The position numbers were made by a program, and so were the translations under genes. Positions 3,085 to 38,247 of a DNA stretch of 44,005 nt are shown piece after piece. The notes beneath the pieces are model-generated. The model did no database searches, was not told where the DNA came from, and was given only the letters and a program-made list of their open reading frames with translations. How positions within the stretch are numbered: the first letter of the stretch is position 1; each line of letters begins with the position of its first letter. The stretch is taken from positions 1 through 44,005 of the forward strand of contig JANWVL010000079.1 in NCBI GenBank assembly GCA_025056655.1, read 5' to 3'. Source of the DNA: Candidatus Methylacidiphilales bacterium. GTDB lineage: Bacteria > Verrucomicrobiota > Verrucomicrobiia > Methylacidiphilales > JANWVL01.

Positions 3085-6000
3085 ATGAAAAATAATATCA
3101 AAAAAATTGTAAAGTTTTTGGCTTACGTATGCATCATAGCACAGCATTCTGAATTTTATGGAAATCCTCCGTGTGCGATTGGGGTAGGGATTTACACCAT
3201 TAATGGTCATGTGGGAAGAGAGTTAAACGTCAACTTAAATCAATTTGTCGAGAATGGTCCTTCCTGCGGAAAGGTCGATAGTTTCCGGATTCTGGAGACA
3301 CAAGGAAACATCCCTGCTGGTATCGAATTTGATTTACCTTTTATCCGAGGCATTCCGATGACTCCCACTTCTTCGTTGGCCCTACCTCGGATCCGAATAC
3401 GGGCTGAGAATCGCCACGGAGGCACCACACTTGAGCTACGGTTGAACATTACATCTCCCCCCGGCGGATCTGTGGCAGCTCCTTGTTGGCGAGCAGGGGG
3501 CGTTACTCTGACTGAGAATTTGACCGTTGTTGAAGGTCAACCGATAAATATTGATCTTCGCTCGAAGCTTTTCTTAGGGGGAACTTGCGGTGAGCCTCAA
3601 TCATGGGCTTTGCATTCAGGCTCGCTTCCACAGGGGCTACAGTTTGATCCAGTCCGAGCAGTGATTTCCGGGTCGGTCTCTGTCGCGACGAAGACTTCGT
3701 TTCAAATTATAGGTCGAAACGGGCAGGGGAGTGTATTTTACACCCTCAATCTGGAGGTTCAGTATGGTTTACGCGGCCCGGGGTATGTGTGTCCAAAAAG
3801 GAGCATCAATGCAGTGGGAATAACGGAAATTCTTCAGGCAACTGTTGGACGTTCATTCCGATATGATCTAAACGATGAGTTGGATCTCAGAGGCGAATGT
3901 GGGAGGGGCGTAGAATGGACTCTTCAGTCTGGTGAAATTCCTCCTGGGTTAAGTTTAGATCGGGCGAGGGGTATTCTGGAGGGAACACCTCAGCGTCATA
4001 CTGAAGTTGGTAAACCTTACGATACGTTTTATATCCGAGTCAAGGGGATAAGAGGACGAGATATTCCAATGGAGGTGCGGATAAAGATTTCCCTACAGGA
4101 AGGGCCACCCTGCGTGAGGATTAACAATATACTTCAAGGAGGAAGAGTAGGTGAGGCAATAAATTTAGATCTAAACAGCTTCTTGCGTCCACCTACTGGA
4201 GCATGTGGTTCTGCGCGACTCTGGCGCCAGTATGGTGCTCTGCCGCCTGGGCTCGTTTTGAATCCTCAAACTGGGCTCATCACGGGCATACCTACGCAGG
4301 CTATCCGAGGTAGGGAAGTCACATTTGAAGCGCTCAATACACAAGGGGGTGTAAATCTAATAATTAAGTTTGATATCTCAGAAAAGGCTTCTGGGATCTG
4401 TATTAAGTCAGGAGCTCCTCTCGAGATACAACTCACAGCGGGGAAACCGATGACCCCGATCCGATTACGCGACTATTTCTTTGAAAATGACGACTGTGTA
4501 TTACCAGAGATATGGAGAGTTTTAGATGGTCGATTGCCAGTTGGTTTACAGTTTGACGTTGAAAAAGGCCTTATCACTGGCGTCCCCACACAGTTAGGAC
4601 AAGAAAATATGTCAATTCAGGCTCTGGCTTTATCACCTCATTCTCAACACATTGTTCTTACTTTAAAAATTAAGGTTGTAAGTGACGACTCTAGGCCTTG
4701 CTTTATTCGACCTAGCGATACAATCCAATTCAACACTGAATCTCCTTTCACACTCGATCTTAATACATATCTTTCATCATCTTCCAGCTGTGGTCCTGGG
4801 CGAAGCTGGGAGGCGCTCGACGCATTGCCCAACGGCATCGAGCTCGATCCGAATCGAGGTCGTCTAACTGGCCGCTTCACCCAAGCTTTACTCAATTACC
4901 GCGTGCGGTTTTTGGCTCACAACTATTCCAACCAGCCTGCAGAGTTTGCACTTGTCTTCAACGTCTCTAGCCCAAGTGGTCTTGGCGATGAAAGCAACCC
5001 ACCGTGTATTCGCACCTTTAATCTTCCAGCACCCCTAATAACAGGCACGGTTGGTGTCCCGCTAGAATTTTCCCTCGAGCCTTATTCCCTAACTGGTGGC
5101 GTGTGTGGTGTGATCAGGCGTTGGGAAGTCGTTAACGGAAAGCTTCCCGAAGGCCTAACAATAGATCAAAACACGCACCGCATTATGGGCACACCGCGAG
5201 AAACATCAAATGCAGTCGTGACCCTTCGTCCCATAAACGCCAGTGTTCTAGCTGGTCGTCCTGGGCCTCTTTTGCCTTTTAAGGTCAACATAAGTGCCCC
5301 TCACATACCCTGTAGGATTAAGCCAGCGGAGCTGCGCTTAGTAGTAGGAGATCGCACTAACGTGAATTTAAATGACCTTCTACTAGACCGTAACGGCGGA
5401 ATATCGTGCGCCATACCCGAGCGCTGGCAGGTCCTGGGTGTCCCGCTTCCCCAAGGTCTCCAGATCGAACAAGGTCGTATTTTAACCGGTATCCCACTTG
5501 AAGAGACCTCCAGAGAGCTTCATCTTTTTGGTCAACACCCTGTTGCCTCGGTGCATGCCCGATTAAGCATCATCGTCTCTCAACGGCGTCACTGCCCCAG
5601 AGAAGCTACCTTGGTTACTCTCACTGGCCGTGTAGGGATGCCGATCAGCCTCAACCTTAATGATCTCATCCGTCAAAATCCGGATTGTGCACCCGTAACA
5701 CGATGGAGAATCTTCGGTGCACTACCTAATGGATTCCCCCAATTTACTCAAGGGCAAGAACTTAAAGAGTCCGTTATCACTGCCACCCCCACAGAGCCTA
5801 CGCATCCAGGATCCTCCCTGATCACTGAACTTATAGGGGATAACTTAACCCTCCACACTGAGCCCATTCGTTTCCAAATTGTTTGGCGCATCGAGCATCG
5901 CGATCCCCCCATCTGCCTGAAAACCAGAGAGTATTTCCTTGAGCTGGAAAAAGACAAACATGCCTTAGTTGATCTTAATAGCCTCTTCTTAAACGGCAAC

Positions 6001-9000
6001 TCATCATGCGCTCACCAGGCTAAATGGGGGCTCTCACCGGCTAACCCTCCTCTCCCAGAAGGATTAACTCTTACAGCAGACGGCCAGCTTACAGGCACCC
6101 CAAGCGTTATATGGACTGGCCGCTCGTATTCTCTATATGTAAGCAACTCCACAGGTTCTTATCCAGTCAACCTTAGGCTCTCTGTGAAAAGCAGTGATGA
6201 ACCCCTCTGCGTCAACCAATACTACCTCGAAATAAATACCCATGTTGGGAAACCCGAATATTTTGACTTGCGCAGCTTCTTTAGCCATCGCTCTGGCTGT
6301 GGCCGAATTCGATGGTGGACCTTTGATCCCCCAGAGCCAGGGCCAGGGAACAGGCTCGTCGATGGCATCACGTTCCGAGACGGGGTGATAAGTGGTCAAG
6401 CTATACGAGCCACTAAGACGCCTGTCCGTTATGTAGTTAAAGCCGGAAATGAAGTCGATACACGTCCAATCTTCATCTCGATAAGCGTAGCCGAAACCCC
6501 CTCACAATCCCCTCGCACCATGAGCACTGAGACCTGCCCTGATACTCTTTCCCCCGTTCGGCTACCTCAAGCTACCCGAGGAAAATCTTACACTGCCTCA
6601 ATCCCTCTTCCCTCTTTCCAAAATTGCATCTTGAGGGAAATTCCCCAACTTCTTCGTCCTCTTCCGCCGGGATTAACCTTTAGTGTAAACTTTGTCGATA
6701 ACCAGATTTACATTAATGGCGCCCCCACAGAAGTCGGTTCCTTCACAGCTGAATTTAGGATTCGACGGCAGAATAATCTCTCCCCTTATAATCTTCCCGT
6801 AACGATTATCGTTGGGGAAGATTCCAGCCGAAGGCCTTGCTCTTTCGATTCGATAGCCATACAAAACATCCCTAAAGCTGAGTTGTATAAGCCCTACTCT
6901 CACACCCTACGTCTATCCACACTAGATTGTATCCCGATACAAGAGATCACACTCCTCTCAGGCCAATTTCCTCCAGGGATCGCCTGGCGGCGAGTCCCAG
7001 AAGGAATCCTATTTGAAGGCACTCCGGCAGCGAGTGGTCGCTTCCAATCCGAATTCAATCTGATCCCCACAACTGGAAGTGAACGGCTCACGCAACAGAT
7101 TGCTTTAGAAGTTGTCAGCAGTAAACCCTGTCCCAATAATATCACTATCGAGCACTTCCGCGTGGGTGTTCCTGCTCGGTATCGGATTGATGACTCTCAA
7201 TTTATCACCGATCCTGTGACTCGAGTGGTGACGAAGTGTGCCGAGATTACCCAAGCGAATGTCCAACAAGGCCAGCTTCCTCGTGGGCTCGAGCTAAGGA
7301 ATACCGTTGACGGCTGGTATATTCAAGGTGTTCCATTGCAAAGTGGCGATTCCACAGTAGTAATCCGAGTCACTAACTCCGAGGGCGCTGCTAACGTCAC
7401 TTTCAACTTCAGAATCAGAGGTGAATCCAATCCCTCCCTCCTTCCACCGTGTAATAGACCAGAACAACAACTTCCCGCGGCCACTATCCGTCGCGATTAC
7501 AACTACGTGGTTTCTCCGGGCGATCCGAGTTCATGTGGTCCCATCCAGGAGATTTCTTTAGGCTTCGGAGCGCTTCCCCCAGGTTTAAATTTAAACTTTG
7601 AGGACGGACGATGGGAAATCGAAGGGGTCCCTAGCCAGATAGGGCAATATCGATTTGTGCTGCAAGTTCGCAACACCACCGGTCAAGCCAATCACACCTA
7701 TTCCATTCAAGTAGTCGATGCCCCACCATGCGATGCGGACACAACCGCTCCTATTATTCGCACGATCAATCAACCTTACAGATTTAATCTCATCAATACT
7801 CAAGTATCGTCTCAATGTGGTCAGCCCACACAGGCCCGATTGATTCAAGGCAATCTCCCTCCAGGCCTCCAAATCATCCCCAGGGCCGATGGTGTCTACA
7901 TCGAAGGCACTCCCAACCAAAGCGGAACTTATCCTTTTACTCTAGCAGTTGCTAATGCCTCAGGTCAGGCCACTATCAGGCTCATCATCCGCGTGGAGGG
8001 AGCTGGACAATCGACACCGGCATTACGGCCTCCCTGCACTGTTCAAAGGGAACTCACCCAAGGAGAGATTCAAATTCCTTACCGCTTTGAACTCGCCCCC
8101 ATCCTGACCCTCAACGGGTGTGGTTCCGCCGATCAGGTTACGCTTGCTTCCGGCTCTCTCCATGCCGGGCTTCGCCTCGAAAACGGGCCTAACGGCTGGG
8201 CGATCGTCGGCACTCCTACAGAACACGGCACACGCAATTTCACCCTCACTCTTACGAATGCAGCAGGCAGAGCTAACGCTCTACTTACCCTCACAATACG
8301 ACCATCATCTTTCGTTATTCCTCCTTGCACTGCGAAGGTCTCGATCCCAGAAGGTGTCGTCAACCAGCCTTACCTCTTTAGGTTGGCAGAAACTCAAAGT
8401 AAGCATTGCGGTCCGATAGAATCAGCCGTTCTTAGTTCCGGCTCTCTCCATTCGGGGTTGAGACTTGAGAGGCATAGTCAAGGTTGGGTCATTGTCGGCA
8501 CCCCAACTGAGGCCGGCGTTCGTAACTTCGTTATCATCGCTACAAATAACGGTGGTTCTGTAAACCTCGAACTCACCCTCAACGTCAGGCCTGATCCTGA
8601 TACCGCCCCGCCATGCAATGCTGAGGCTCAGGAAGAGGCTCTCATAGATAGAATCTATCGTTTTGACATCAATGCCTATCGAGGCGGAGGTGTGTGTGGT
8701 AAACCGACAGAGGTTCAACTTACCTCAGGCACTCTTCACAATGGACTAGCAATCATTAACCAACCCCCAGGCTTATGGCGTATCGAAGGTTACCCAAGAG
8801 AGTCTGGAACCCGTGAACTCGTCTTTAGCCTCCGCAACCAGTATGGATCCAGCATTGTCCGCCTGCGGTTGACCGTCAAAAACCCACCGCTGGGAGCTCC
8901 ATGTAACGTAGATTTTGACCTACGCGACATAGCAACCCTCGGGCAGCCCTTCCGTTATGCCATCGGTGATCTCTTCTATAGCCCCACCCGAGGCTGTGGA

Positions 9001-9939
9001 GCTGCTCAAAGGGTCACCCTAACCGAAGGGCGCTTGCCGAACGGAATCAACCTAGCTAGCTCCAACGGCACTTGGGTCATTGAAGGCACACCGACGGAAG
9101 CTGGAGAGTTCAGATGCGTCTTAATAGGCACGAATGACGCAGGCACAGGCACCCTAAGACTGCGGTTAGTAGTCAAGCCGGCTAACACAACGGGATCTGT
9201 CCAGCCTCCTCCCGTATCCTCCGGGAGTCCAGTCTGTCCAAATGAACTCATCGCGCCTAGCGGCAACGTAAACAACTTCTACCGCTACGATCTCACAGCC
9301 GCACTCCCCGCTTCCTGTGGACCGATCCGACTAATCACCATACAAAACGGAGTCCTGCACAATGGCCTCCGTTTACAAAACGAATCGGGCCGCTGGATCC
9401 TCTCGGGCACACCTATTGAATCCGGCAAACGATCGTTTATTCTTAGCCTCTTCCACATCTCAGGATCAACCACAACCCTCGTCCTAAATCTCAACATCCT
9501 CAGCCCATACAACGCCCTCTCCACAACGCCGACCATCGTCGTATCCCCCTCAATACCCACTGGTTCAACCAATACCCCAAACACCATCGTCTCCCCAGGA
9601 GTTACCCATACCACTTTACGACCTCAGACAACCCCATCTTCCTCCACAATCTTCATCCCACCTTGTCATTATGATCCTATAGTGCCAGATGCTCGCGTAG
9701 GTGTGCCATATCGGCTGGACATAGCTGCGACGCAACCTGTGGGGATCAACTGCGGTCCGGTTGAGCGCGTGAGTTTGCACTCGGGGACCTTACCTAGTGG
9801 CCTCCGCCTAGCTCAAGAGAACGGCCGCTGGTATCTCCTCGGCACGCCTACTCAATCAGGGCGACCTCTCATTGCCCTCACCCTTTCAAATTCCGCCGGA
9901 TCTGCTCTCACCGCCATCCGGCTTAATATTCAACCCTAA
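3085..9939 (+). CDS. Giant secreted protein of 22 cysteine-paired He_PIG (Ig-like) modules
   Basis: 2284 aa from the ATG at 3085. A GTG at 2992 would add 31 basic residues, but MKNNIKKIVKFLAYVCIIA at 3085 looks like a proper signal peptide. The rest is 22 consecutive modules of about 95-110 residues. Each carries the He_PIG signature (LPPGL...GTPT..G, then N..G) and two cysteines: one at the module start, usually in a P-P-C context, and one 25-40 residues later, often as CG. This predicts one disulfide per module in an oxidising compartment. Modules 1-11 tend to have a Trp after the second Cys. Modules 12-22, from about 6532, share the tighter pattern CGPI...SG.L..GL.L...W.I.GTPT..G. A Ser/Thr/Pro-rich linker of about 45 residues precedes the last module. 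No transmembrane anchor, sorting tail or catalytic domain is seen. Likely a surface or extracellular fibre or adhesin; the ligand is unknown. Confidence 0.85.
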   Translation: MKNNIKKIVKFLAYVCIIAQHSEFYGNPPCAIGVGIYTINGHVGRELNVNLNQFVENGPSCGKVDSFRILETQGNIPAGIEFDLPFIRGIPMTPTSSLALPRIRIRAENRHGGTTLELRLNITSPPGGSVAAPCWRAGGVTLTENLTVVEGQPINIDLRSKLFLGGTCGEPQSWALHSGSLPQGLQFDPVRAVISGSVSVATKTSFQIIGRNGQGSVFYTLNLEVQYGLRGPGYVCPKRSINAVGITEILQATVGRSFRYDLNDELDLRGECGRGVEWTLQSGEIPPGLSLDRARGILEGTPQRHTEVGKPYDTFYIRVKGIRGRDIPMEVRIKISLQEGPPCVRINNILQGGRVGEAINLDLNSFLRPPTGACGSARLWRQYGALPPGLVLNPQTGLITGIPTQAIRGREVTFEALNTQGGVNLIIKFDISEKASGICIKSGAPLEIQLTAGKPMTPIRLRDYFFENDDCVLPEIWRVLDGRLPVGLQFDVEKGLITGVPTQLGQENMSIQALALSPHSQHIVLTLKIKVVSDDSRPCFIRPSDTIQFNTESPFTLDLNTYLSSSSSCGPGRSWEALDALPNGIELDPNRGRLTGRFTQALLNYRVRFLAHNYSNQPAEFALVFNVSSPSGLGDESNPPCIRTFNLPAPLITGTVGVPLEFSLEPYSLTGGVCGVIRRWEVVNGKLPEGLTIDQNTHRIMGTPRETSNAVVTLRPINASVLAGRPGPLLPFKVNISAPHIPCRIKPAELRLVVGDRTNVNLNDLLLDRNGGISCAIPERWQVLGVPLPQGLQIEQGRILTGIPLEETSRELHLFGQHPVASVHARLSIIVSQRRHCPREATLVTLTGRVGMPISLNLNDLIRQNPDCAPVTRWRIFGALPNGFPQFTQGQELKESVITATPTEPTHPGSSLITELIGDNLTLHTEPIRFQIVWRIEHRDPPICLKTREYFLELEKDKHALVDLNSLFLNGNSSCAHQAKWGLSPANPPLPEGLTLTADGQLTGTPSVIWTGRSYSLYVSNSTGSYPVNLRLSVKSSDEPLCVNQYYLEINTHVGKPEYFDLRSFFSHRSGCGRIRWWTFDPPEPGPGNRLVDGITFRDGVISGQAIRATKTPVRYVVKAGNEVDTRPIFISISVAETPSQSPRTMSTETCPDTLSPVRLPQATRGKSYTASIPLPSFQNCILREIPQLLRPLPPGLTFSVNFVDNQIYINGAPTEVGSFTAEFRIRRQNNLSPYNLPVTIIVGEDSSRRPCSFDSIAIQNIPKAELYKPYSHTLRLSTLDCIPIQEITLLSGQFPPGIAWRRVPEGILFEGTPAASGRFQSEFNLIPTTGSERLTQQIALEVVSSKPCPNNITIEHFRVGVPARYRIDDSQFITDPVTRVVTKCAEITQANVQQGQLPRGLELRNTVDGWYIQGVPLQSGDSTVVIRVTNSEGAANVTFNFRIRGESNPSLLPPCNRPEQQLPAATIRRDYNYVVSPGDPSSCGPIQEISLGFGALPPGLNLNFEDGRWEIEGVPSQIGQYRFVLQVRNTTGQANHTYSIQVVDAPPCDADTTAPIIRTINQPYRFNLINTQVSSQCGQPTQARLIQGNLPPGLQIIPRADGVYIEGTPNQSGTYPFTLAVANASGQATIRLIIRVEGAGQSTPALRPPCTVQRELTQGEIQIPYRFELAPILTLNGCGSADQVTLASGSLHAGLRLENGPNGWAIVGTPTEHGTRNFTLTLTNAAGRANALLTLTIRPSSFVIPPCTAKVSIPEGVVNQPYLFRLAETQSKHCGPIESAVLSSGSLHSGLRLERHSQGWVIVGTPTEAGVRNFVIIATNNGGSVNLELTLNVRPDPDTAPPCNAEAQEEALIDRIYRFDINAYRGGGVCGKPTEVQLTSGTLHNGLAIINQPPGLWRIEGYPRESGTRELVFSLRNQYGSSIVRLRLTVKNPPLGAPCNVDFDLRDIATLGQPFRYAIGDLFYSPTRGCGAAQRVTLTEGRLPNGINLASSNGTWVIEGTPTEAGEFRCVLIGTNDAGTGTLRLRLVVKPANTTGSVQPPPVSSGSPVCPNELIAPSGNVNNFYRYDLTAALPASCGPIRLITIQNGVLHNGLRLQNESGRWILSGTPIESGKRSFILSLFHISGSTTTLVLNLNILSPYNALSTTPTIVVSPSIPTGSTNTPNTIVSPGVTHTTLRPQTTPSSSTIFIPPCHYDPIVPDARVGVPYRLDIAATQPVGINCGPVERVSLHSGTLPSGLRLAQENGRWYLLGTPTQSGRPLIALTLSNSAGSALTAIRLNIQP

Positions 9940-10437: not shown

Positions 10438-13400
10438 ATGGGCATTGAAAGAAAGATGATAGTTATGAAATCTAGCTTAGATAGTATTTTCAACACCTAC
10501 CGGGCCATTAAAAAAAACATATTGGAAAGATACAGAAGAATCGTTTTGTTAATAGCTATCTTCTCTATGTCTCCTTATGGGGCTGAAGCGCAGCCTTACC
10601 GAGTGTGGGGGACTTATTATGGAGGTAGCCAGGATGATTATGCTCATGCTATCGCCGTGGATCCGCAAAATGGGAGTGTCTATCTATGCGGTTTTACGGT
10701 TAGCACATCGCCTACAGGGGCTATTGCTACGCCAGGAACACATCAGACTACATTCGGCGGCGGAGGAGCCGATGTTTTCTTAGTAAAAATTAATCCAGTA
10801 AATGGCCAGAGAATATGGGGAACGTATTTCGGTGGAAACGGAGAGGAGAATTTTTACAACTACGAGGCTGGTTATGTCGCTGTCGGCCCTGACTCAGGAG
10901 TCTATCTTACGGGATATACTGGCTCTTCTTCAGGCATAGCGACTAGTGGCACTCATCAGACCGTCTACAGTGGAGGAATCGATGCTTTTTTAGCTAAATT
11001 TAACCCGAGCAATGGCCAAAGGATTTGGGGCACCTACTACGGCGGTCCCAGCGTTGAGCGTGCCTACGCCGTGGAAATCGATATGACCAACGGCCATGTC
11101 TATCTGGCAGGTTTTACACAATCGGCTACAGGAATAGCCACTACTGGGACCCAACAGCCAACTTTTGGGGGCAACACCGATGCGTTTTTGGCTCGGTTCA
11201 ATCCCACCAACGGACAGCTAGTGTGGGGCACCTACTATGGACAATCCGCCGGCGATATCGGATATGCTGTTGCGGTTGATCCAAACGACGGATCTGTCTA
11301 CCTCGCAGGGGCGACAAATTCCGCATCGGGAATTGCAACAACCGGCGCTCATCAAACTACCTTCAATGGCGGAGGGGATGGATTTATCGCTAAGTTCAAC
11401 CCTCTTAATGGCATACGAATCTGGGGCACATACTACGGAGGAAACCAAGACGACCGTGTTTTCGCAGCAGCTGTGGGTAATGATAGCAGCCTCTACATAG
11501 CCGGCACGACTCTATCTAACTGGCCCTCTTCTTCAATTGGCACTACGGGCACATTTCAACCTAATATGCTCAGTTCATCCTATAACGGCTTTGTGGCACG
11601 CATAAACCCTACCAATGGCCAAAGGATTTGGGGGACCTACTATGGGGGAACTGTCGGATCTGTATTTGGAGAATCTATTTTCGTCGGGCTCGACAACAGC
11701 GTTTACTTTGGCGGCTATACAAACTCCACCAGTCCCATCATTGCTTCAACAGGAGCTTATCAGCCCTCCTATGGCGGGGGCACTTGGGATGCCTTCCTAG
11801 CAAAATTTAATCCCACCAACGGCCAACGGATCTGGGGCACATACTACGGTGGGCCTCAAAGTGAATGGATACACTCCCTAACCAACGATCCGACGACCAA
11901 CGCTGCTTATATTGGTGGCTGGACCTCATCAACCTCAGGCATAGCCACTCCCGGCACCCATCAAACTGCCTTTAACGGCGGTCTCTTCGATGCCTTCATT
12001 GCCAAATTTTCCGAGGTGTTCATCAACCTAAGCAATGTTCCAAGTTGTGGCATCGTCGGCCAAACCATTAATGCCACTGTCACAGCTCAGACAGCGGCAG
12101 GTTGTCTACCGATCACTCTATCTGCTGCGACATTACCCAGCGGTCTCACATTTAACGCCATCCCCAACTCTGGCACAGTCTCGGGCACGCTCAGTGCTAC
12201 GGGCGTCCACACGCTCTCCATCACTGGCACTGATTCCTGCAGCTCTACGACCACCTATTCTAAAATAATACACGTCGGCACCCCTCCCACCTTGCCTAAT
12301 TATCCTACCGTATATGGAATGGTCGGTTTTGCCATGAATTTCAATGCTTCAGGGACTGTCCACCCATTCTTTACACCAGCCTCATATTCCATCTCGCCTC
12401 CGCTCCCCTCGGCCCTTACTCTTAATCCCTCGACAGGCTTTATCACAGGCTCTCCTAGTAATACTTCCCCGCTCACTAACTACACCGTCACCATCACCGA
12501 CTCTTGTGGACACACCGCCACCAGCATCCTCCCTCTACAAGTTGTCCCTTATCAGAGTTGCTCAGCCATCAACCTCTCAGCTACGGCCACTGCGCCTAAC
12601 TGCTCCAGCATTCAAATAAATTGGGCACCCAACGCCTTCTGTGGCACGGGAGATTTCGTCGCCATTCGCTACCGCATCGGCACTAATCCTTGGATAGACG
12701 TTCCCAACGCCTCTCGCCCATCGGTTCCCACACTCAGCACAACCCTAACGGGCCTCTCCCCATCCACAACTTACGAGGTCCAAATACAAACCGTTTTCGG
12801 TCAAAACACAGCTCCCAACCCTGCCGCCTGGATTACCATAGGGCACATTGCCGTCCCCGCATGTCCGTCTGCGCCTACTATCACAGGTCCAGCATCCGTC
12901 ACTCACTGCAATCCTGGAGCGGTGAGCATTACGATGACGGCTACGAATTCGCCGACGAGTTGGGCTGTGGTGGGGAGCTTGCCTACGGGCTTGAGCTTGA
13001 ATACGGGGACGGGTGTGATTTCTGGGAATGTGGCTGTGGGGGTGTATAGCTTTACGGTGACGGCGAGTAATGCAGGGGGGACGAGCGCGCCGTTTACGGT
13101 GAACTTAACGGTGAACAGCCAGCCTTCTATCACCTCAGCGGGGTCGCTTTCGGCGACGCTGGGGCAGACGTTTACCCATGTGGTGACAGCGACAGGGACA
13201 CCAACGCCGAGCGTGACGGTAAGCGCGATCTCCCCCGCACCTGGATTAGATATCAGCGGTAATACCGTCCTCGGCACTCTATCAGCTACGGGGACATTCA
13301 CGTATCAAGCAACAGCGACAAATAGCTGCGGGACAGTAAACCAGACGATCACGATCACAGTAACGCATACGCCCGCGACGATCCTCCTGACCCAAGCTCG

Positions 13401-13890
13401 GCTGCGAGCGATGCATGGGAGTTTTCAGGGGGACGTAGCGCTGACGCTAACGGGGTCGATTTCAAGCGTGGATCCACGGAGGCACACAGTGGCGAGGGAG
13501 TTGGTGTTGACGTTCAATCAAGCAGTGACAAGTATTAATCTGGAGCAAGAACTCGGTCCGACCATCACGTTCGGATCGCCTATCTTTTCAGGGAACACGG
13601 TGCGAATCCCATTAAGTGGACTAAAAAACAACGTAAAATATCAAGTAAAAATTAACACCGTGAATGGACAAACATTAATGGGCGTCAACAAAGTGAATTG
13701 GCGGATCATACGTGGAGATGTAAATGGGAATGGGACGGTGAGTGCGGTGGATAGTGCGCAGGCGACGGCGCATATAGGCCAGGCGATAACGAATGCGACG
13801 TTTCGGTCTGATGTGAATGCGGATGGGAGTATTACGAGCTTGGATGTGACGCAGGTGGTGAGTAACAACGGGGCGTACGTGGCGCCGTAG
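10438..13890 (+). CDS. Secreted SBBP beta-propeller protein with He_PIG/Fn3 modules and dockerin-type C-terminus
   Basis: 1150 aa. A long basic N-region leads into a hydrophobic stretch (RIVLLIAIFSMSPYGAEA) that fits a signal peptide cleaved near residue 51. Another possible start is the ATG at 10465. Seven SBBP repeats follow, each opening with WGTYYGG or a close variant (near 10605, 10815, 11025, 11222, 11421, 11624, 11829) and containing A.DP.NGSVYL and FLAKFNP segments. Seven copies of about 66-70 residues suggest one complete seven-bladed propeller. Then come two He_PIG-like modules, an Fn3-like module (about residues 705-805) and two more He_PIG modules. The end (about 1091-1150) is dockerin type I-like, with two calcium-loop motifs DVNGNGTVSAVD and DVNADGSITSLD. 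Codon composition flips from C-ending to G-ending near 12905 within the frame. Likely secreted and surface-associated; binding partner unknown. Confidence 0.85.
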   Translation: MGIERKMIVMKSSLDSIFNTYRAIKKNILERYRRIVLLIAIFSMSPYGAEAQPYRVWGTYYGGSQDDYAHAIAVDPQNGSVYLCGFTVSTSPTGAIATPGTHQTTFGGGGADVFLVKINPVNGQRIWGTYFGGNGEENFYNYEAGYVAVGPDSGVYLTGYTGSSSGIATSGTHQTVYSGGIDAFLAKFNPSNGQRIWGTYYGGPSVERAYAVEIDMTNGHVYLAGFTQSATGIATTGTQQPTFGGNTDAFLARFNPTNGQLVWGTYYGQSAGDIGYAVAVDPNDGSVYLAGATNSASGIATTGAHQTTFNGGGDGFIAKFNPLNGIRIWGTYYGGNQDDRVFAAAVGNDSSLYIAGTTLSNWPSSSIGTTGTFQPNMLSSSYNGFVARINPTNGQRIWGTYYGGTVGSVFGESIFVGLDNSVYFGGYTNSTSPIIASTGAYQPSYGGGTWDAFLAKFNPTNGQRIWGTYYGGPQSEWIHSLTNDPTTNAAYIGGWTSSTSGIATPGTHQTAFNGGLFDAFIAKFSEVFINLSNVPSCGIVGQTINATVTAQTAAGCLPITLSAATLPSGLTFNAIPNSGTVSGTLSATGVHTLSITGTDSCSSTTTYSKIIHVGTPPTLPNYPTVYGMVGFAMNFNASGTVHPFFTPASYSISPPLPSALTLNPSTGFITGSPSNTSPLTNYTVTITDSCGHTATSILPLQVVPYQSCSAINLSATATAPNCSSIQINWAPNAFCGTGDFVAIRYRIGTNPWIDVPNASRPSVPTLSTTLTGLSPSTTYEVQIQTVFGQNTAPNPAAWITIGHIAVPACPSAPTITGPASVTHCNPGAVSITMTATNSPTSWAVVGSLPTGLSLNTGTGVISGNVAVGVYSFTVTASNAGGTSAPFTVNLTVNSQPSITSAGSLSATLGQTFTHVVTATGTPTPSVTVSAISPAPGLDISGNTVLGTLSATGTFTYQATATNSCGTVNQTITITVTHTPATILLTQARLRAMHGSFQGDVALTLTGSISSVDPRRHTVARELVLTFNQAVTSINLEQELGPTITFGSPIFSGNTVRIPLSGLKNNVKYQVKINTVNGQTLMGVNKVNWRIIRGDVNGNGTVSAVDSAQATAHIGQAITNATFRSDVNADGSITSLDVTQVVSNNGAYVAP

Positions 13891-34728: not shown

Positions 34729-37700
34729 ATGACTCCGCCAACCCCACACCATCCCCTCAAAACCCTCCTCAACCCAATACTCACCCTCCTCACCCTCACC
34801 ATCCTATCCCCAACTCTTGCCCCAACCCAAACCGTCTGGGTCTCCCGCTTCTGGCACAACCACCAACCCATCTACTGGCCAGAATGGAACACCAATGGCT
34901 CCCAAACCAACCGCGTCCAATACGCCTGGGACTCCATCGTCCTCAAGCCCACCCAAACCTACCCCAACAGCACCGCCCAACATCCCGAAAACAACCTCGT
35001 CGAAATCTTCAGCAACGCCGACCGCGTCGCCGCCTACCAAGGCCGCCCCCGCGATGCCCTCCAAAACATCAACTCCGCAGGCGGCTTCGCCATGAGCTAC
35101 TCCGGCTCCCTCATCGACAACGTCCGCCAACTCGCCGCCCACAACCAACTCGGCTACGGCCCAGGCTGGTGGGACGGCAACCGCCAAGCCCGCGGCTGGT
35201 CCACCCCCTCAGGCTCCCCGCGCCTCGACCTCGTCGGATTCACCTACCACCACTCCCTCGGAGCCGTCCTCCCCAAATCCGTATTCCGAAAAGAAATCCA
35301 ACTCTTCAAACAAGCCTGGTGGAAAGCCTGGAACGGCAACATGGACCTCTCCGACCACTCAAAGGGCTTCTTCCCCACCGAAATGGCCTTCACCATACCC
35401 ATGATCGACGTTCTTGTCGACGAAGGCTACCAATGGGTCATCGTAGCCAGTCACCATCTCTCCCGCACCTGTCCTACCTACTTTGACCCATCAAGAATCA
35501 ACCCACCCAGCAAATTCGACATCAAATACTCACCCCCCAACAAAGCCGACCTCCTCGGCCCCTCCCCCACCACAGGCTGGTGGTTCGGCGAGCCCAACCC
35601 CGGCCAAGCCGCATGGAACGTCTCCCCCTTCGCCTATCAACTCCACCGCGCCAAATACGTCAACCCCGCCACCGGCCAAGAAAAATCCATCATCCTCGTC
35701 CCCTCAGACGACGTCCTCTCCTACCGCTATGGCTATGCCAACGAAGGCATCTCCAAAATCCAAAACCACATCGCCCCCTTCGCCACCGACCCCAACCGCC
35801 CCGCCATCGTCCTTCCTGCCACCGACGGCGACAACGCCTGGGGCGGTGGATACGACTCCTGGATGGTCGCCACCCCACAACTCTTCTCCAACTCCCAATC
35901 CGCAGGTTACAAGATCACCACTATCCAAGACATGGTGAACCAAAAACCACCCCCCCCAGGCCAATTCGTTCACATCGAAGCCGGCTCTTGGATATTCCCC
36001 GAAATGTGTTACGGCTCACCCTATTTTCTCAAGTGGATCGAGCCACCTCTTAAGTCCGGGTCGCCCACGGCTTACCCGAACACTATCGTTGATCTTGAGA
36101 CACCTGGCTTCGCCCTCAAATTCTGGAGCTGGGCGGCTGTCGTCACTGGCGCCAACTGGGTTGAAACCGCCGAGCAAATCTGGAAAGGCGACGGCGGCAC
36201 CGTCGAAGCCTGGAAAATACAAGCCCCATACGACTGGCACGGCCCCTACACAAATCCCAACATAGTCGAATTAGCCTGGCACATCTACCTCAAAGGGCTT
36301 GACTCCGGCTTCAACTACTACGGCGGACTCGGCAATGACGACGAAGTCAAACCCTCCCTCGCCACCCTCCGCGCCATACAAAAACTCGAGCCCTACATCA
36401 ACGCCAACCTCCACAAAGACCAGACCCCCCCCACCGTCTTCTACCCTCAACGATTCCCATGGAATCCCGGTGGCTGGACTTTTGGATGGTTTAACCCCGT
36501 TCCCGGCAACAGCAACTACCTCAAAAAAATGAACTCCGAGTTCTACATCTGGACGCATGTTTACGACGTCTCCGGAGTCCAATCCGTCAACCTCAAAATC
36601 CGCATGGACAATGATGGCGTCAACACCCTCGCCAACAACCAAAACGAGACCTATGCCGGCGGCCCTGACGTCGGCCCCTGGATAACCATCCCCATGACCA
36701 AACGCACACTGCCTCGCACACGAGCTGAGCTCAACGCTGCCGCCAACAACGCACAAATCAACTACTTCATCGAACTCCCCCCCGGCAAACTCGCCGACTA
36801 CTACTACGCCAAAATCCACGACGGAAACGTCCCCAACTTCCGAGGCAAACTCTTCGACTACTACATCGAAGCCACCGACACCAAAGGCAACATAGCCCGC
36901 ACCGACATCCAACACGTCTTCGTCGAAGACGATGGCAACACCCCCACAATCCCCGCCACACCCACCAACCTCCAATCCACAACCCCCTCTGCCACACAAG
37001 TCAATCTCACCTGGAACGCTGTCCCCGGCGCCACACAATACGAAGTCAAACGCAACAACGTCCTCGTCGCCACAGTCACAACCAACAGCTACAACGACAC
37101 CAACCTCATCCCACAAACCCAATACTGCTACACCGTCGCCGCAAAAAATACGGCCGGCACCTCCCCCGACTCTGCACCACACTGCGTCACCACACCCGCA
37201 GCCGTTCCACCCCCCACGCCCACGGGTCTCACGGCTACAGCACAAAATCACACAACTGTCATCATCACATGGACAGCCACTCCAGGCGCCGCTCACTACA
37301 CCCTACGCCGCAACGGCAACATCATCGCCAGCAACCTCACAAACACAACCTTCACCGACACCGGTCTCTCACCCCTCACAACCTACTCATACACCCTCCA
37401 AGCACACAACATCTACGGCAACTCTGCTCAAACGGCTCCCGTCACCGTCACAACTCCCTCAGCCCCCATCAACTTCAACATGGATGGCCAATTCGAACAC
37501 CCAAACTACCTCATCGCCGATAACGGCATGCGCCTCTATGCCGCCGTCCGTGGCACCAAACTTTACGTCGCCACTTGGGCCACAGGAGCCTCTCCAAGCT
37601 CAAACGATCACTTCATCTATATCTCCGACTCCCTACTCTCTTCAGCCACCACACCCGCAGTCTGGGCTAAAGCAGGACAAATTGCCATTCCACCCAACAA

Positions 37701-38247
37701 GCCTTACCTCGCCGGCGAGGGCACGAACAACTACCGTGCATGGTTCAATGCTGGCACCACACACCAAAGCGCTGAAGGCACTGGCCCACAAGCTCTAGAG
37801 GGAGTCATCGATCTGGTGGAGGCCTTCGGTCAAGTCCCGCAAAACCTTTACTTTGCAGCCGTTGCATACGGCAACCCCGACGGTGCCGGCATCGCAGCCC
37901 AAGTCCCAGCAGGAAACGGCAACAACAACCTCGAGCCAAACGAATGGCTCCACATGCCCACAGTAGCCTTACGCGACGAAAATGCAGATTTCATCTTTGA
38001 TCGCCTCGATCCAGAGCGCGATTTCGTGATCCAACACACGATCACCGCATCCGGAAACCTCCAGCTCACCTTCAACACATTCCCCGGTCGCACCTACCAA
38101 GTCCAACACTCCCTAAATCTAACAACCTGGACCGACATAGGCACCCCCATCACAGCAGGCCCCGGAGAAATCACAAAAACCTTCACCCACACCGCTGCCG
38201 TCAACAACCATCAACGAAGCTTCTACCGCATACGCCTCAACCCATAA
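34729..38247 (+). CDS. Secreted GH57-like glycoside hydrolase with two Fn3 domains
   Basis: 1172 aa. A Leu/Thr-rich signal sequence spans about residues 10-33. The catalytic domain opens with the GH57 motif HNHQP (H43-P47). E218 in GFFPTEMAF fits the nucleophile and D366 in ATDGDNAW fits the general acid/base; the usual DGEN reads DGDN. GH57 enzymes act on alpha-glucans (amylase, pullulanase, branching types), but the specificity here is unknown. Two Fn3-like domains follow (about 742-826 and 827-915), then a domain resembling a carbohydrate- or substrate-binding module (about 920-1095). The C-terminal module (RTYQVQHSLNLTTWTDIG ... RSFYRI) is typical of secreted verrucomicrobial proteins. 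It is transcribed alone, and its third codon positions are extremely C-rich. Confidence 0.82.
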   Translation: MTPPTPHHPLKTLLNPILTLLTLTILSPTLAPTQTVWVSRFWHNHQPIYWPEWNTNGSQTNRVQYAWDSIVLKPTQTYPNSTAQHPENNLVEIFSNADRVAAYQGRPRDALQNINSAGGFAMSYSGSLIDNVRQLAAHNQLGYGPGWWDGNRQARGWSTPSGSPRLDLVGFTYHHSLGAVLPKSVFRKEIQLFKQAWWKAWNGNMDLSDHSKGFFPTEMAFTIPMIDVLVDEGYQWVIVASHHLSRTCPTYFDPSRINPPSKFDIKYSPPNKADLLGPSPTTGWWFGEPNPGQAAWNVSPFAYQLHRAKYVNPATGQEKSIILVPSDDVLSYRYGYANEGISKIQNHIAPFATDPNRPAIVLPATDGDNAWGGGYDSWMVATPQLFSNSQSAGYKITTIQDMVNQKPPPPGQFVHIEAGSWIFPEMCYGSPYFLKWIEPPLKSGSPTAYPNTIVDLETPGFALKFWSWAAVVTGANWVETAEQIWKGDGGTVEAWKIQAPYDWHGPYTNPNIVELAWHIYLKGLDSGFNYYGGLGNDDEVKPSLATLRAIQKLEPYINANLHKDQTPPTVFYPQRFPWNPGGWTFGWFNPVPGNSNYLKKMNSEFYIWTHVYDVSGVQSVNLKIRMDNDGVNTLANNQNETYAGGPDVGPWITIPMTKRTLPRTRAELNAAANNAQINYFIELPPGKLADYYYAKIHDGNVPNFRGKLFDYYIEATDTKGNIARTDIQHVFVEDDGNTPTIPATPTNLQSTTPSATQVNLTWNAVPGATQYEVKRNNVLVATVTTNSYNDTNLIPQTQYCYTVAAKNTAGTSPDSAPHCVTTPAAVPPPTPTGLTATAQNHTTVIITWTATPGAAHYTLRRNGNIIASNLTNTTFTDTGLSPLTTYSYTLQAHNIYGNSAQTAPVTVTTPSAPINFNMDGQFEHPNYLIADNGMRLYAAVRGTKLYVATWATGASPSSNDHFIYISDSLLSSATTPAVWAKAGQIAIPPNKPYLAGEGTNNYRAWFNAGTTHQSAEGTGPQALEGVIDLVEAFGQVPQNLYFAAVAYGNPDGAGIAAQVPAGNGNNNLEPNEWLHMPTVALRDENADFIFDRLDPERDFVIQHTITASGNLQLTFNTFPGRTYQVQHSLNLTTWTDIGTPITAGPGEITKTFTHTAAVNNHQRSFYRIRLNP

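Follow-up and report, generated by a model that had tools for sequence, protein, structure and literature searches.

Adhesins of bacteria often contain tandem repeats, and the usual means of stiffening these are calcium ions or isopeptide or ester bonds. Several described systems provide points of comparison for the protein analysed here. In SraP a single Ca2+ ion is bound by Asp661, Thr663 O, Asp690/Asn691 and Asp734 (PMC4047093). The DraE fimbrial subunits contain a conserved disulfide between the A and B strands that is worth ~50 kJ/mol; in simulations it stops strand A detaching first under pull, and these link it to shear resistance (PMC5625045). The giant adhesin of Mobiluncus mulieris comprises 51 Ig-like domains with intradomain covalent cross-links, some of which are disulfides (PMC10619420). 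Finally, RTX adhesins have an extender of tandem β-sandwich repeats that reaches out from the surface, with linkers stiffened by Ca2+ (PMC7493085). Taken with the cross-linked Ig-like adhesins, these repeats show that such arrays serve as stalks.

We have analysed a 22-module protein encoded in a stretch of DNA of 44,005 nucleotides, referred to below as the window. The window is the entire contig C79 of a 2.44 Mb genome that is assembled in 178 contigs and is 96% complete.

A chain of 22 He_PIG modules

The open reading frame at 3085-9939 on the forward strand encodes a chain of 2,284 residues, in agreement with the length of about 2280 residues that had been predicted. The frame is open to 9939 from either GTG 2992 or ATG 3085. 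The chain begins with a signal-like N-terminus, MKNNIKKIVKFLAYVCIIA (3085-3141, +), in which a K-rich n-region is followed by FLAYVCIIA, with a putative cleavage site, and the product is probably secreted. Modules 1-11 then occupy 3160-6522 (+), starting at 3160, 3472, 3778, 4099, 4387, 4687, 4993, 5299, 5581, 5902 and 6196. Modules 12-22 occupy 6523-9936 (+), with starts at 6523, 6826, 7117, 7438, 7717, 8023, 8314, 8602, 8890, 9223 and 9652. Module length is ~93-109 residues, except that modules 20 and 21 come to 111 and 143 residues when their linkers are counted. These linkers are apparent in the sequence as a P/T/S-rich segment of 12 residues after module 20 (9187-9222, +) and a T/P/S-rich segment of 49 residues after module 21 (9505-9651, +); lying near the C-terminus, both are probably flexible.

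The whole protein matches the Pfam family He_PIG (PF05345) with E = 2.6e-87 and a score of 287.8 bits (curated cut-off 24). Nine stretches are significant singly, and the He_PIG core motifs LPxGL and GxIxGTP are present in the modules. As an independent test, we built an HMM from 13 paralogue modules only (see below), and scored it against 50 shuffles. This gave 22 in-register matches, 21 of which lay above the best shuffled score of 2.8 bits; the lowest of the 21 was module 13 with 6.9 bits, while module 12 scored 2.6 bits, below the shuffled best. An HMM constructed from the He_PIG modules of relatives also produced 22 in-register matches (shuffled maximum 1.6 bits), with weak scores for module 9 (0.8 bits), module 13 (1.7 bits) and module 12 (3.4 bits). 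Judged by these alignments, all 22 modules belong to one homologous He_PIG family, and the assumption of homology is upheld.

Pfam detected He_PIG and nothing else above cut-off in the protein, and NCBIfam gave no match. Neither library revealed an anchor or binding domain, as the original prediction had anticipated, and there is no sequence beyond module 22, whose last strand closes the chain. No secretion partner for the 22-module protein was identified. An assembly artefact or DNA tandem array was also considered, and was rejected. Tandem Repeats Finder found no tandem array in the DNA, which counts against an assembly repeat, and the modules are strongly diverged, being 18-45% identical to a reference module.

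The cysteine pair and its predicted setting

The open reading frame contains 46 cysteines: C16 within the signal-like segment, 44 in 22 alternating pairs, and C2011, an extra cysteine in module 20. Thus 44 of the 45 mature cysteines fall in the module pairs, and both members of the pair, C1 and C2, are present in 22/22 modules. In modules 1-11, C1 is residue 5 of each and C2 lies 30-36 residues on, and across the 22 modules of the window the C1-C2 spacing is 27-36 residues. Along the chain, short (27-36 residues) and long (62-79) gaps between cysteines alternate, a pattern broken only where the extra cysteine in module 20 or the long final linker intervenes. When the 45 mature cysteines were placed at random in 20,000 trials, the mean number of paired modules was 0.09 and the maximum was 3, compared with the 22 observed. 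The proposal that every module has two cysteines at equivalent positions is thus borne out.

The analysis was extended to a set of 35 modules, made up of the 22 of the window protein and the 13 encoded by two further genes of the same genome, on contigs C126 and C135. The mean column identity across these modules is 27%, and the C1-C2 spacing is 27-39 residues. No column of their joint alignment is invariant except those of the two cysteines; the LPxGL and GTP motifs rank behind them, and the pair is the strongest constraint in this family. Might the cysteines be ligands for a metal or haem? The equivalent corners of SraP do bind Ca2+ (PMC4047093), but with no invariant His, Asp or Glu accompanying the cysteines, and with no CXXC or CXXCH in the protein, where even the closest two cysteines (one of them in the signal-like segment) are separated by 14 residues, we regard such a role as highly improbable.

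AF2 models were calculated for modules 17-18 (mean pLDDT 95.2, pTM 0.66) and modules 4-5 (mean pLDDT 92.5, pTM 0.62), values that indicate confidence in the individual modules but not in their relative orientation. The modules are confidently predicted to adopt an Ig/cadherin-like β-sandwich, and Foldseek matches included the cadherin-like modules of SraP, fucoidanase domains, cadherins and titin Ig. In the modelled strand order C1 lies just ahead of strand A and C2 is in the B-C loop, so that C1 and C2 would share one pole of the up-down sandwich, and the following module would have its C1 at the opposite end. In the model of modules 4-5, the residues that form bridges according to DSSP include 4 and 6, which flank C5, and 37, which follows C36; in the second module they include 100 and 102, flanking C101, and 133-134, which include C133. 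It is as if the C1 and C2 segments paired with each other in this model.

We consider an intramodule C1-C2 disulfide to be likely, on the basis of both the alignment and the models, which indirectly favour the two cysteines lying close together. The alternative is that bonding occurs from chain to chain, linking filaments into sheets, or from one module to its neighbour, which would fix the joints. C1 is indeed located at the module joint, and module 20 has its extra, unpaired cysteine. However, the presence of the two cysteines at one pole in 35/35 modules fits an internal pair, as does a spacing that varies so little. A bond between adjacent modules is unlikely in particular, since C2 would be at the pole opposite to the C1 of the next module, as judged by strand order only. 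Overall we find bonding between chains or modules improbable. Placing the disulfide within the module has a consequence for the stiffened fibre that was first proposed. A staple internal to each module, joints of uncertain orientation and two probably flexible linkers do not add up to stiffening of the whole fibre, and that part of the proposal is not sustained.

Paralogues, module history and occurrence in other genomes

Is the cysteine-paired subtype confined to the window protein? This idea was rejected, since 13 more such modules are encoded by the C126 and C135 genes. Each of these encodes a β-propeller-like N-terminal part, followed in the C126 gene by 5 complete modules of the subtype and in the C135 gene by 8. 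Both genes sit at contig ends, and the two contigs begin with an identical 141 bases (L017:1-141 and L018:1-141), indicating that the assembly broke in a shared module repeat and that both genes are cut, with their 3′ parts missing.

The tree of the modules, which rests on ~98 columns, bears on their history. Modules 12-22 form a single group on one side of a branch, with support of 91/79, while modules 1-11 are interleaved with those of the C126 and C135 genes. Constraining all 22 modules of the window to group together gave a worse fit (p-AU 0.037), and constraining modules 1-11 to do so was borderline (p-AU 0.052). Of the two subfamilies that had been proposed, therefore, the second is recovered and the first is not. 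Growth by two rounds of duplication is likewise unsupported, as modules 1-11 are not a single duplicated block. We tentatively suggest that the N-terminal half draws on a pool of modules held in common with the propeller genes, and that the C-terminal half may have expanded separately.

The genome gave 62 He_PIG matches in all, and its He_PIG genes, of which there are nine or more, differ in their cysteine layouts. The He_PIG gene on contig C45 is free of cysteine. In those on contigs C73, C100 and C147, and in the downstream gene of the window (10438-13890, +), the cysteines are found mainly in the B-C and F-G loops. A cysteine in the B-C loop is accompanied by one in the F-G loop in 17/19 modules, an association with Fisher p = 6e-5 using motif labels that were set after looking, and p = 0.03 using profile columns. 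The protein encoded by 10438-13890 comprises by Pfam a secreted β-propeller (SBBP), He_PIG, fn3 and a C-terminal dockerin; it belongs to the same broader family but its modules are of a different subtype, with cysteines in the B-C and F-G loops. Together with the loci L020, L022, L023 and L024 it makes up a family of secreted propeller-plus-He_PIG proteins. The fn3 and dockerin assignments were made by Pfam in the window copy, and the C-termini of the other copies are similar. No cohesin was found in the genome, leaving the dockerins without an obvious partner. Elsewhere in the window, the 1172-residue product of 34729-38247 combines a domain of glycosyl hydrolase family 57 with two of fn3.

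With the 35-module profile we searched two sets of genomes, 62 from the order and a sample of 388 from the phylum, the own genome being included in each set. The subtype was not seen in any genome of either set apart from its own. The best score outside the own genome was ~49 bits, compared with 57-111 bits for the own-genome modules (43 for module 12), scores that are raised by the derivation of the profile from those same modules. Cysteine-free versions of He_PIG occur in relatives within the order, and at the loci taken from relatives in the phylum 4/55 of the longer He_PIG modules contain any cysteine and 0/55 contain two. Two scans of 85,000 species genomes with short peptide patterns revealed no relative, but the method is insensitive and this is a weak negative. 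Matches on viral contigs start after the C2 residue, as do most of those on plasmids, so that both, taken as whole matches rather than module by module, look like ordinary He_PIG; in phages there was no match. The genomes searched included no other from the same family, and the subtype may therefore be more widespread. We found no paper in the literature that relevantly linked He_PIG with a disulfide. Thus the cysteine-paired subtype, for which a search had been suggested, is present in two further genes of the same genome and was not seen in the others searched. The premise that He_PIG modules normally lack disulfides holds for those of the relatives, but other He_PIG proteins of this genome carry a different cysteine pair, in the B-C and F-G loops.

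Could the pair be an ordinary disulfide that stabilises the fold of a lineage-specific He_PIG family, with no mechanical or calcium-replacing role, the protein then being one of the genome's many secreted repeat proteins? The variety of layouts among the nine or more He_PIG genes suggests that cysteine pairs arise readily in this lineage, and the versions free of cysteine in relatives of the order also favour this explanation. Full retention of the pair in 35 diverged modules, however, argues for a continuing requirement, although that requirement may be for folding stability. We think this explanation rather unlikely.

Calcium, oxidation and the proposed filament

When SraP was added to the module alignment, Asp661 fell on C1 in 35/35 modules and Asp734 on an asparagine in 28/35. 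Asp690 stands 13 residues before LPxGL, which is the commonest spacing for C2 (19/35), but this is a match by spacing only, as Asp690 and C2 were not aligned with each other. The SraP-type set of Ca2+ ligands, comprising Asp/Asn at the N-terminus, the B-C loop and the F-G loop, was not found. With cysteine at the position of Asp661 and mostly asparagine at that of Asp734, an SraP-type Ca2+ site has probably been lost. The change at Asp734 is not specific to the cysteine-paired subtype, since asparagine is also common there in the genome's other He_PIG modules. Residues that share one ion must be close together, so that cysteines placed at those corners could bond.

A possible but doubtful extension is that the lineage has undergone a switch from calcium to disulfide at the three corners of SraP, i.e., the N-terminus, the B-C loop and the F-G loop. 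The N-terminus and B-C loop would then be joined in the window protein and its two paralogues, and the B-C and F-G loops in the propeller-dockerin proteins. If the switch were real, the product would be a calcium-independent, mechanically stapled cadherin-like filament. Replacement of the calcium corners by the pair would also allow stapling by metal and by disulfide to be compared, as they occur in nature, within a single fold and a single genome, and the array would be a candidate for a repeat scaffold that does not need calcium.

How might the cysteines become oxidised? The presence of lpxB in the window suggests a Gram-negative type of envelope. The DSBA family (PF01323) and VKOR were both absent from the 96%-complete genome, and this counts against the disulfide model. 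The sole DsbA-like match, to thioredoxin_4 (L089, on contig C16 with 35.7% GC), contains CNYC and has a second half lacking CXXC, and the sole DsbB match (L090, on contig C27 with 43.7% GC) is a stub. As these are small or low-GC loci (the GC content of the window is ~52%), they may be contamination of the assembly. If the genome truly has neither DsbA nor VKOR, the manner in which 22 disulfides get made becomes a question.

We favour, with a probability of roughly 0.6, a secreted non-enzymatic filament of 22 stapled modules, most likely a surface or matrix stalk or an adhesive fibre. The signal sequence would direct export of the 22 cadherin/Ig-like He_PIG modules in series, and in each a disulfide would tie C1, the residue that immediately precedes strand A, to C2 in the B-C loop. 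The staple would lie at the N-terminal pole, where the preceding module joins. With the lead-in strand pinned to the module core, neither pull nor protease could unzip the module from its N-terminal end, an effect comparable with that of the A-B disulfide in DraE, and the disulfide would substitute for the Ca2+ ion that ties the equivalent corners in SraP-type modules. Oxidation to disulfide, export, calcium replacement and the role as filament or adhesin are all things that we infer, and surface attachment and adhesion are so because neither an anchor nor a head domain was found in the protein, nor a partner for its secretion. The neighbouring divergent gene (1124-2875, -) encodes PKD domains and, close to its C-terminus, a hydrophobic stretch that probably spans the membrane.

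How does the protein compare with those already described? CDHL-1/2 of SraP (PDB 4m00, 4m02 and 4m03) are relatives in both sequence and fold, and likewise form a rod-like tandem, and the cysteine pair of the window modules is at the same pole that Ca2+ ties in SraP. SraP, however, has two modules, a lectin head and a serine-rich region, whereas the window protein has 22 modules and neither head nor serine-rich region. The DraE disulfide connects the regions of strands A and B within an Ig-like fold, and by strand order the positions of the window pair are compatible with this. But DraE consists of separate chaperone-usher subunits assembled by donor-strand exchange, whereas the window encodes a continuous chain of another Ig-like family in which the bond is predicted. 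The M. mulieris adhesin is similarly a long single-chain Ig-like array. It differs in having mainly ester and isopeptide bonds and other domains, and the disulfide mapped in it, Cys6887-Cys6895, bridges neighbouring strands. In the RTX repeats the stiffening comes from Ca2+ in the linkers; the window modules have instead a cysteine pair at the pole on the side of the joint. Lastly, the window modules belong to He_PIG (PF05345), but add the invariant cysteine pair to it. Tandem Ig/cadherin-like surface filaments are thus known, and what is new is a He_PIG variant with an invariant cysteine pair in each module.
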